DNA of 32,679 nucleotides from Chryseobacterium gleum (lineage in GTDB: Bacteria; Bacteroidota; Bacteroidia; Flavobacteriales_D; Crocinitomicaceae): NCBI GenBank assembly GCA_945902775.1, contig CAMDMY010000026.1:1-32679 (forward strand), given 5' to 3'. Position numbers and translations under genes: made by a program. Under the pieces are notes generated by a model. The model searched no databases. It was not told where the DNA came from and saw nothing but the letters and a program-made list of their open reading frames with translations. Position 1 is the first letter of the stretch, and each line of letters starts with the position of its first letter. Shown one piece after another: positions 1-18,503 of this stretch.

Positions 1-45
1 TTGTCGGATTTGTCGGATTTGTCGGATTTGTCGGATTTGTCGGAT
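1..45. repeat. Tandem array of a 9-bp unit (TTGTCGGAT x5)
   Basis: Five exact head-to-tail copies of TTGTCGGAT fill the first 45 bases, so the array probably continues beyond the left edge and its true copy number is unknown. The GGAT of the last copy is also the outermost part of the left arm of the palindrome at 42-102, so the two elements are fused. No reading frame uses it. It could be a replication-slippage microsatellite, part of a transposase-associated repeat, or a place where an assembly collapsed. Confidence 0.9.
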
Positions 46-102
46 TTTATAATCAACATAGGATAGGAATTTAATTCCTATCCTATGTTGATTATAAAAT
101 CC
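42..102. repeat. Perfect 61-bp palindrome (30-bp arms, 1-nt centre)
   Basis: Every base from 42 to 71 pairs with its partner from 73 to 102 around the single centre T72. The arms begin GGATTTTATAATC and the centre reads GGAATTTAATTCC. As single-stranded DNA or RNA this would be a 30-bp mismatch-free hairpin. It lies 90 bases upstream of a Y1 (HUH) transposase, a family that recognises hairpins in single-stranded DNA, so a transposase-linked hairpin or REP-like element is the leading idea. A terminator for an upstream gene outside the window is possible, but there is no T-run directly after the stem. The perfection of the arms suggests recent origin or selection. Confidence 0.9.
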
Positions 103-192
103 AATTATTTTCAAAAAAAACCACAATAAACATTAATAAAACCAAAACATTTATTAAATTCAATAGAAAAATTATAAATAAATCAATTTAAA

Positions 193-612
193 ATGCCACA
201 ATCATTTAATAAAATATGGATACATTCCGTATGGTCGACCAAAAACAGAAAGCATTTAATTCATTCAAAATATGAACAAATTATATTTGATTATATGACA
301 AGTAAATTCATTGAGTTAGGTTGTCCGGTAAGAATCATAAATGGAATGGGTGATCATGTACATTGTTTGTTTTTATTAAATCCGAAACGGTCCATGGCCG
401 ACATTATCAAAAATGTAAAAGGAAGCACTTCTCATTTCATCAATCACTTTATAAAACCTGAAGAAAAATTTGAATGGCAACACGGCTACGGCTCATTTTC
501 AATTAGTGAATCAGAACTTGAAAGAACATTCTTGTACATTAAAAATCAAAAGATTAAACACCTAAAACAAGAATACTTTCAAGCAATTCACGAAACAAAT
601 TCAAAAATTTAA
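193..612 (+). CDS. IS200/IS605-type Y1 (HUH) transposase, short form
   Basis: The protein has 139 residues and the fold signature of small TnpA/REP-associated tyrosine transposases, which cut and rejoin single-stranded DNA at hairpins. The N-terminal stretch MPQSFNKIWIHSVWSTKNRK is typical. The HUH metal-binding pair is H55-V-H57 in GDHVHCLF. The GYGSFSIS motif is at 98-105, and the nucleophile Tyr115 with Gln119 sits in YIKNQ. Related proteins usually run to about 150 residues and end in a conserved EF..LL...I.YDE.Y.W segment. Here the sequence after YIKNQ is divergent and stops about 20 residues later without that segment, and I saw no frameshift that restores it. No tnpB lies nearby. The gene may be a degenerate copy or a solo domesticated transposase acting on the adjacent palindrome. 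The family call is firm; activity is uncertain. Confidence 0.9.
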   Translation: MPQSFNKIWIHSVWSTKNRKHLIHSKYEQIIFDYMTSKFIELGCPVRIINGMGDHVHCLFLLNPKRSMADIIKNVKGSTSHFINHFIKPEEKFEWQHGYGSFSISESELERTFLYIKNQKIKHLKQEYFQAIHETNSKI

Positions 613-652
613 TCTGTTTAACTAAAAAATAAAAACTTTAAACAAAAAATGA

Positions 653-684
653 TTTTGATAATCAAAAGGAGTTTCGTAATTTTG
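653..684 (+). promoter_or_regulatory. Bacteroidota-type promoter of ahcY with embedded palindrome
   Basis: TTTTG at 653-657 (-33 element), a 19-nt spacer and TAATTTTG at 677-684 (-7 element, TAnnTTTG) match the phylum's housekeeping consensus exactly. Transcription would begin near 690, giving a leader of under 20 nt before the ATG at 708. The -33 element is half of a 15-bp perfect palindrome at 653-667 (TTTTGAT, A, ATCAAAA), which could be a repressor or activator site. Confidence 0.75.
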
Positions 685-707
685 CTTTATACAAATTAAA
701 AGATATT

Positions 708-2018
708 ATGAACACAATTGAAAAATTAGGATACAAAGTAAAAGATATTAGCTTATCTGAGTGGGGAAGAAAAGAAATTATGTTAGCTGAGGCTGAAATG
801 CCAGGTTTAATGTCATTACGTGAAGAATTCGCTGCTACTCAACCATTAAAAGGTGCTCGTATCGCAGGATGTTTACATATGACAATTCAAACTGCTGTTT
901 TAATTGAAACATTAACTGCTTTAGGTGCTGAAGTTTCTTGGTCTTCTTGTAATATTTTCTCTACACAAGATCAAGCTGCTGCTGCAATAGCTGCAACCGG
1001 AGTTCCTGTTTTTGCTTGGAAAGGAATGAACGAAGAAGAATTTGATTGGTGTATTGACCAAACAGTATTTGCTTTTGAAGGTGGAAAACCATTGAATATG
1101 ATCTTAGATGATGGTGGAGATTTAACAAATTTAGTATTTGATAAATACCCTGAATTAACTGCTGGAATCAAAGGTTTATCTGAAGAGACTACAACTGGAG
1201 TTCACAGATTACATGAAAGAGTTAAAAATGGAACATTAGTAATGCCTGCAATCAATGTTAATGATTCAGTTACTAAATCTAAATTTGATAATAAATACGG
1301 ATGTAAAGAATCTTTAGTTGATTCTATCCGTCGTGCTACTGACGTTATGATGGCTGGTAAAGTTGCTGTTGTTTGTGGTTACGGAGATGTTGGTAAAGGT
1401 TCTGCTGCTTCTTTAAAAGGTGCTGGTGCTAGAGTTATCGTTACTGAAATCGATCCTATTTGTGCTTTACAAGCTGCAATGGACGGATTTGAAGTTAAAA
1501 AATTAGATACTGTTGTTGGTTTAGGTGATATCATTGTTACTACTACAGGAAACAAAGACATCATCGTTGGACGTCATTTCGAAAACATGAAAGACAAAGC
1601 GATCGTTTGTAATATCGGTCACTTCGATAACGAAATTGATATGGCTTGGTTAAACGGAAACTATGGTAATACTAAAAACACAGTTAAACCACAAGTGGAC
1701 ATCTACACTATCAATGGAAAAGATGTAATCATTTTAGCTGAAGGTCGTTTAGTAAATTTAGGTTGTGCAACTGGTCACCCATCATTTGTAATGTCAAATT
1801 CATTCACAAACCAAACTTTGGCTCAAATTGAATTATGGACAAACAGTGCTAACTACAAAAATGAAGTTTACGTTTTACCTAAACATTTAGATGAAAAAGT
1901 AGCTCGTTTACATTTAGCTAAAATTGGAGTTGAATTAGATGTTTTATCAAAAGAACAAGCTGATTACATCGGTGTTGCAGTTGAAGGTCCATTCAAATCT
2001 AACGAGTACCGTTATTAA
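708..2018 (+). CDS. ahcY: Adenosylhomocysteinase (S-adenosyl-L-homocysteine hydrolase)
   Basis: This cytoplasmic NAD-dependent enzyme reversibly splits S-adenosylhomocysteine into adenosine and homocysteine, clearing the product inhibitor of all SAM-dependent methyltransferases. At 436 residues it is full length. Visible signatures are AEAEMPGLM (28-35 region), [20 protein letters not shown] (49-68), the Rossmann glycine-rich NAD loop [13 protein letters not shown] at 221-233, and the C-terminal lysine/tyrosine tail ending SNEYRY, which reaches the NAD site of the partner subunit in this family. The start follows a consensus promoter by a short leader. Codons such as GCT, GGT and GTT dominate more than in neighbouring genes, consistent with high expression. 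It is monocistronic and ends at a strong hairpin shared with the convergent tex gene. Confidence 0.98.
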
Positions 2019-17192: not shown

Positions 17193-18503
17193 TTAATCAA
17201 TTATTTTCCAATGAGTTCCATTTCCAGCACCTACTCTCTCGATTTTATTTTGAACTCTTAATTCTTTAATATTTCGTTCAATCGTTCGAATGGTCAATCT
17301 AGTTTTTTTTGCTAATTGCGATGAAGTAATTTCTGGATTCTTCTTTATTAACTCCAAAATTTTGCCCGACATTTTGCCCGACATTTTGCCCGACATTTCA
17401 ACCATAGAAATGAAGGTGATCATCAATCCTCCAAAGCTTGTAGAATATGTTGGTTTAGGTAAATTAAACTGCTCACATTCTGCAATTATTTTAGAAACTC
17501 CTCTCCCCCAAGACTCAATCATTCCTGCTCTGAAAAAAGTATTTGCAATATCAGGATTAGCAGGTTTAGAAGGGTGACTCGACAATATCGTTTCTAATGT
17601 CCAATTTAAAGGTAGTTGACCTTCGTTCCAAATCTGTAACTTATCATTGTATACTTTTATTTGAATTGGAATACCTGAACTATAATCTTTATGGGCAACT
17701 GCATTCAGTAAAGCTTCTCTTAATGCCGACTCTGGGTATGCATATTCTTCAATACGAGCAATTCCTTGATACCGAATTTGTGCACTCATATACTTCGTCA
17801 ACAACAAATCCAATGTTTTTTCAACCTGTTCAAATAAATTTCCATGAACCTCATCTTGATAGATTAAATCAGCATCTGTTGTAAAAAAGCCAATTTTTAT
17901 ATAAGCACCCGTTACATATTTTTCTGGATTATGATAAAACAATAATGAACACGCTTGTTTTAACTGTCCGTTTTCAATTAAATGTAAATTTTCAAATAGA
18001 GTTAATAAACTATCTTCTAAAATATTTTTACTTACCCTACTCGATTTAATCGCTCTGTTTTTAAAATTCTCAAGCGCTTTTAAATCTAAATCAGATAAAG
18101 TTAAGCCTGGTAAAGGTATACCATCCCAATGTTTTCCAGATTTTTGAAGTATAAACTTATTTAAGGCTGCTCCTTTCAATTCTTGCTTTGTACTTCCACT
18201 TCGAAAATGATATTCTCCTTTATAATTAACTGGATATGGATAGGAATCAACTATAATTTCAATATAATCTTTATCGCTCTCTGTCAATAAATTAACCTCC
18301 ACAATAATCCCTAAAATATCTCGAACTTTATTAGGAATATCTTCTAATAATTTCCTTGCATTTAGAAGTCCAACATTCTCTCCTTTATCATTTTTACCAA
18401 TGTATAAAATACCTCCATTTGCATTTGCAAATCCAGAAATCCATTTGAGATATTCATCTCTCCAAGATTCTTTCCATTCTAAACATTGATTTTCTTGATT
18501 CAT
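17193..18503 (-). CDS. AlbA_2 (Schlafen-type) / HATPase-like / winged-helix regulator
   Basis: A 436-residue protein of the group often annotated 'ATP-binding protein' or 'RecG-like transcriptional regulator'. The AlbA_2 domain spans about 6-125 (CLEWKES, WISGFANANGGILYIGKND). A HATPase_c_4-like domain lies around 250-345 (REALLNAVAHKDYSSG, IWNEGQLP, ESWGRGVSKI). A three-fold MSGK repeat (370-381) forms a linker to a C-terminal winged helix (382-436, ITSSQLAKKTRLTIRTIERN). This architecture suggests a DNA- or RNA-binding regulator; targets are unknown, and some relatives lie in defence or mobile regions. It is the first gene of a three-gene minus-strand run and ends 1 nt before the adhesin gene. 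Domain calls are good; the function is not established. Confidence 0.85.
   Translation of the reverse strand: MNQENQCLEWKESWRDEYLKWISGFANANGGILYIGKNDKGENVGLLNARKLLEDIPNKVRDILGIIVEVNLLTESDKDYIEIIVDSYPYPVNYKGEYHFRSGSTKQELKGAALNKFILQKSGKHWDGIPLPGLTLSDLDLKALENFKNRAIKSSRVSKNILEDSLLTLFENLHLIENGQLKQACSLLFYHNPEKYVTGAYIKIGFFTTDADLIYQDEVHGNLFEQVEKTLDLLLTKYMSAQIRYQGIARIEEYAYPESALREALLNAVAHKDYSSGIPIQIKVYNDKLQIWNEGQLPLNWTLETILSSHPSKPANPDIANTFFRAGMIESWGRGVSKIIAECEQFNLPKPTYSTSFGGLMITFISMVEMSGKMSGKMSGKILELIKKNPEITSSQLAKKTRLTIRTIERNIKELRVQNKIERVGAGNGTHWKIID
17359..17394. repeat. In-frame 12-bp tandem repeat (ATTTTGCCCGAC x3)
   Basis: Three identical 12-bp units lie inside the AlbA_2 regulator gene and encode the MSGK MSGK MSGK linker. 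Because the unit is a multiple of three, gain or loss of copies changes linker length without breaking the frame. Confidence 0.9.

Follow-up and report, generated by a model that had tools for sequence, protein, structure and literature searches.

The window analysed here spans 32,679 nucleotides and corresponds to the entire contig C26 of a 3.09 Mb Bacteroidota genome assembled in 168 contigs. Its left end presents a tandem array, a perfect palindrome and a gene encoding a solo transposase, followed by a housekeeping gene:

1..47, no strand: nonamer array, 5.2 copies of TTGTCGGAT, cut by the contig end and hence a lower bound
42..102, no strand: perfect palindrome of 61 bp with 30-bp arms and a 1-nt centre, from an inverted-repeat search
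42..56, no strand: left outer stem, GGATTTTATAATCAA; it is mostly specific to this locus and most resembles that of the copy on contig C14
57..87, no strand: conserved core CATAGGATAGGAATT-T-AATTCCTATCCTATG, common to 13 copies in the genome
88..102, no strand: right outer stem, the exact complement of 42-56
193..612, + strand: solo, IS200-like HUH/Y1 transposase without an adjacent tnpB; its motif and length place it in subclass 1.2
539..612, + strand: stretch of the Y1 gene still present, as a remnant, at the orthologous locus of the sister species G007
708..2018, + strand: gene for adenosylhomocysteinase (ahcY), flanking the insertion on the right and directly following an RND efflux gene in seven congeners without Y1

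The open reading frame at 193-612 begins 90 nt past the palindrome and encodes a protein of 139 aa matching Pfam Y1_Tnp (E=1e-22), in agreement with the solo HUH/Y1 gene that the sequence-only reading had placed there, and its best matches among solved structures belong to the IS200/IS605 HUH/Y1 family. The HUH motif (DHVH) and the catalytic Tyr and Gln are all intact, and the C-terminus is some 7-10 residues shorter than in its relatives. The catalytic segment reads YIKNQKIKH, keeping the second His and presenting Lys at the first, and the His pair is present in the relatives L015, L016 and L017 and in 61 of 80 related loci. By motif and length, the protein may be assigned to subclass 1.2; it forms a long branch on the Y1 tree. 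The genome carries a single copy of this gene, together with two other Y1 genes at 32-37% identity.

Five exact TTGTCGGAT units occupy positions 1-45 and are called by TRF at 1-47 (5.2 copies, 100% match, score 94) as the highest-scoring tandem array of the whole window. Their terminal GGAT (42-45) is also the start of the palindrome, and the array, when read as (GGATTTGTC)n, repeats the 6 bases with which the palindrome arm begins. The arms (42-71 and 73-102, 30 nt each, separated by 1 nt) are 100% complementary, and TRF and the inverted-repeat search reproduced the array and palindrome geometry noted beforehand. As the array lies at the contig end, five copies represent a lower bound. A further tandem repeat in the window (17359-17398; 3.3 copies of the 12-bp unit ATTTTGCCCGAC) encodes MSGK repeats in the C-terminal part of ORF 17193-18503.

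Palindrome copies, arrays and empty sites

Searches with BLAST and a covariance model located 13 clear palindrome places and a weak one in the genome, with a BLAST match on C49 discarded as AT-rich noise. The expectation that the 30-bp arm would be found in multiple copies held only in part: a 15-bp core arm recurs at the 13 places, defining the common 30-bp core CATAGGATAGGRWTT[N]AAWYCCTATCCTATG, but the full arm is not conserved among copies. The outer stems are mostly locus-specific, those of C26 and C14 being similar, yet they pair fully or nearly fully within each copy, for total arms of 15-30 bp. As in classical REPs, the copies are multiple and extragenic, with none of the 13 overlapping an ORF of at least 90 aa. 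The 2-5 nt loop of classical REPs was not found in these copies, which have a centre of 0-1 nt except for an unpaired innermost pair in C14, and neither was a GTAG/GTGG tag 0-2 nt 5' of the hairpin at any of 26 feet in the 13 copies, measured from the full stem or from the core. No palindromes were found near the other two Y1 genes of the genome (L002 and L003).

Two other palindromes were observed in the course of these searches. A different 65-bp near-perfect palindrome (L043:2501-2565, G000:C49), with GTAGAGACGTTGC...GCAACGTCTCTAC in its middle and GTAG on both sides, may represent a second REP family, of the classical kind, in this genome. The palindrome TTYTAAACCCCTCGAATTCGAGGGGTTTARAA is near-identical in two species (L046:2786-2817, G000:C20; L026:1202-1233, G003:C10), and some 270 bp separate its G003 copy from another Y1 gene.

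The extragenic location of every palindrome, and that of the C14 copy between convergent genes, would fit bidirectional transcription terminators or RNA stability elements lying close to Y1 genes by chance. We regard this explanation as highly unlikely, because a T tract is missing after most stems (most flanks contain 0-4 T in 8) and no terminator-like site was found in window positions 1-800, two results that led to rejection of an intrinsic terminator, and because the C10, C20 and C9b copies already have an ordinary intrinsic terminator upstream of them. Furthermore, an Rfam search returned no match, and the explanation does not account for the 21-fold enrichment at Y1 genes and the clade matching described below.

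The nonamer array was not matched elsewhere in the genome by a two-unit query allowing up to 2 mismatches. A second nonamer array of different spelling (TTGTTCGGT, 4.4 copies) abuts a palindrome copy inside contig C9, bordered on either side by unique sequence, and the assembly artefact that had been feared at C26 is hence unlikely. Strong tandem arrays adjoin 3 of the 13 palindrome copies (C26, C9 and C1; 0.15 expected), with differing units, and tandem arrays adjoin 6 of 68 palindromes from elsewhere (0.64 expected), the repeated unit being the palindrome arm itself in several of these 68. The array was rejected as a constant part of the element on the basis of this scarcity and of the differing units, and the mobile "hairpin plus array" unit proposed beforehand is not supported, the full 30-bp arm not being conserved either. 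The array is a real but occasional by-product, and arrays near palindromes are consistent with slippage at a strong hairpin.

The Y1 locus lies between the RND efflux gene and ahcY, which are adjacent in the seven congeners without Y1; in G007, only about the last 25 Y1 codons remain at the orthologous locus. Comparison with G007 identified contig C45, which ends just past the RND efflux gene, as the left neighbour of C26, the gap between them being unsequenced. The comparison of empty sites for palindromes encompassed C110, C18 and, in part, C78 and C40 (2079 bases in all), and left out C9, C1, C43 and C10. It revealed orthologous sites without the palindrome in eight congeners for C18 and in three for C78. 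The comparison with related strains suggested at the outset hence points to insertion, and the three copies examined, C26 (with the gene), C18 and C78, are lineage-specific insertions. For C40, G006 and G004 lack such a palindrome, but the gap there holds other sequence. A scan of relatives detected two palindrome places in G007, one in G006 and none in the other nine listed congeners. The exception is C14: the orthologous region of G007 (80.7% identity over 2.5 kb) also holds a palindrome at this place; by eye, several stem positions differ between the two with pairing kept. Given that G007 carries a well-matching palindrome and no intact close Y1, palindromes can persist alone.

Palindromes at related Y1 loci across the Bacteroidetes

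A near-perfect inverted repeat was detected within 300 bp (the near flank) at 41 of 80 related Bacteroidota Y1 loci, a count that includes a few AT-rich or N-run matches or short Flavobacterium hairpins. Inverted-repeat density reached 0.71 per kb in near flanks versus 0.034 per kb in far flanks, a 21-fold difference. Half of the related loci, including a well-supported 26-row clade that is largely Flavobacterium, have no long palindrome nearby. Most of the related palindromes read CATAGCCCACGGTTTAAACCGTGGGCTATG or variants thereof, with a common length, CATAG ends and a TTTAAA centre. These three features are kept in the aligned cores, which present paired changes at 16 of 20 positions, a covariation count inflated by the inclusion of only near-perfect palindromes in the alignment. 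Palindrome strings of the GCCC class, those covered by the literature search, were not found in any paper.

Two of the related loci show peculiar arrangements. At L015:1-226, on a contig also holding L129, a 75-bp tandem repeat in three copies, each with a palindrome of the window family, directly precedes a Y1 gene with 52% identity. At L017:1459-1494 (G030), the 3' end of the Y1 frame contains a palindrome, and the C-terminus is unusual there.

The related palindromes are often part of a three-hairpin composite. Of the 42 sites listed, 28 have a short inverted repeat to the left of the palindrome and 26 have one to the right (shuffling would give 4.1 and 3.4, respectively), the commonest being ATGGTTNAAACCAT and ACCGTTTNAACGGT. 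Their placement in the composites is nearly symmetric, at about 43-44 nt from the centre on each side. In a set of 19 additional copies, taken from six genomes, most in G077, G080, G065 and G059 have at least one of the two short hairpins at comparable offsets, and by eye the spacers appear unrelated from copy to copy. Y1 coding sequence is absent within about 320 bp of 17 of these 19 copies, all from genomes carrying the gene, and such genomes contain up to about 16 palindrome places. The short flanking hairpins were looked for and not found at the copies of the window's own genome.

Y1 genes with palindromes on one or both sides, some of them as direct repeats (L091, L117), and small composite hairpins recalling IS200/IS605 ends could also be read as ends or remnants of ordinary IS200-group insertion sequences, or as miniature derivatives resembling palindrome-associated transposable elements (PATEs), with no REP system involved. 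We deem this improbable: the closest other Y1 in the genome is only 37% identical, which implies that no multicopy IS is present there, and the copies, which are either single palindromes or composites whose spacers are unrelated, do not represent deletion derivatives of one IS.

The distribution of palindromes was also compared with that of the transposases. The GGTG palindrome class coincides exactly with a single starred clade, which comprises 7 Y1 proteins. On a Y1 tree with many unresolved forks, the full set of palindrome labels required 22 changes versus 39.1 when shuffled, a clustering beyond any of 200 shuffles. In a phylum sample of 198 genomes, of which nine have a close Y1 (>190 bits), the R2 model, trained on palindromes near the window Y1's subfamily and including own copies, matched 4 of these 9 genomes and 0 of the other 189 at E<=1e-8, a cut picked after the data were seen and with the window's own genome among the four positives. 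At the looser E<=1e-4, the figures were 4 of 9 and 12 of 189. The matches in G172 and G193 are palindromes beside the Y1 gene itself. Overall, the association between gene and palindrome is well supported, and palindrome class follows Y1 clade. These results bear on the notion of a host regulatory or nucleoid-protein site at which Y1 genes merely landed, which would be in line with the near-symmetric placement of the short hairpins and the seemingly unrelated spacers. It is nonetheless very improbable, given the lineage specificity of the core, for which empty orthologous sites exist, and the fact that its spelling tracks Y1 clade.

Proposed working and relation to known systems

The best reading of these data is a REP/RAYT-like system without GTAG tag and without loop. 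Specifically, we propose, with a probability of about 0.68, a REP/RAYT-like pair in the Bacteroidota consisting of a subclass 1.2 Y1 nuclease and a cognate loop-less palindrome of low copy number and intergenic location. The REP-like option raised by the sequence-only reading is supported by the multicopy, extragenic core, by the related palindromes at related Bacteroidota Y1 genes and by the agreement of class with clade. Recognition, cleavage and mobilisation of the palindrome by Y1 are inferred by analogy with RAYTs (PMC8266576). When single-stranded, on the lagging strand or as a cruciform, the palindrome would fold into a long hairpin, and the Y1 protein would recognise its conserved core, made up of a CATAG foot, a clade-specific middle and the TTTAAA centre. 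The enzyme would then cut next to the core, and the hairpin would be passed as single-stranded DNA to intergenic sites. The perfectly paired, locus-specific outer stems, like the tandem repeats at the foot, would most simply be by-products of hairpin-templated repair or replication slippage.

A bolder and rather unlikely proposal is that subclass 1.2 enzymes maintain undescribed loop-less palindromes, with the three-hairpin composite of near-fixed spacing and unrelated spacers as mainstream form, and that the enzyme itself duplicates flanking DNA to form matching outer stems, each insertion thereby creating another perfect palindrome out of the sequence at the site. The orthologous C14 and G007a hairpins, with different but fully paired stems, offer a natural case for how palindromes stay perfect.

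Compared with the IS200/IS605 elements of subclass 1.1 (ISHp608, ISDra2), the window Y1 shares the HUH/Y1 family by sequence but lacks an adjacent tnpB, and no multicopy element with constant hairpin ends was found in its genome. PATEs are short palindrome-bearing elements linked to IS200/IS605-type enzymes, and the palindromes described here can be likened to them by description. The term has been used for Haloquadratum (PMC3119063).

Subclass 1.2, as defined by Quentin et al. (2018), groups proteins of about 148 aa with a Y---Q--HH motif and a short core from Bacteroidetes and Cyanobacteria (PMC6006769). The proteins considered here resemble it in their Bacteroidota origin, length (about 139-150 aa), DHVH, WQ and Y--NQ--H motifs and low copy number. 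The subclass was described as generally without hairpins, and as negative for REPs, in a search requiring GTAG/GTGG and a 2-5 nt loop (PMC6006769), which would miss these palindromes. A Y1 class described as having no repeat partner hence appears to have one, making its function directly testable.

The closest likeness in organisation is to REP/RAYT (TnpA_REP) systems, or REPtrons (PMC8266576, PMC3116915), in which, as here, a single-copy-like Y1 gene lies beside palindromes that occur scattered through intergenic DNA as well, and palindrome class tracks transposase clade. In contrast with those systems, the pair described here involves another Y1 subclass, palindromes with no loop and with long stems of variable outer part, and about 2-16 copies per genome, and it offers a REP-like system lacking the GTAG tag or loop.
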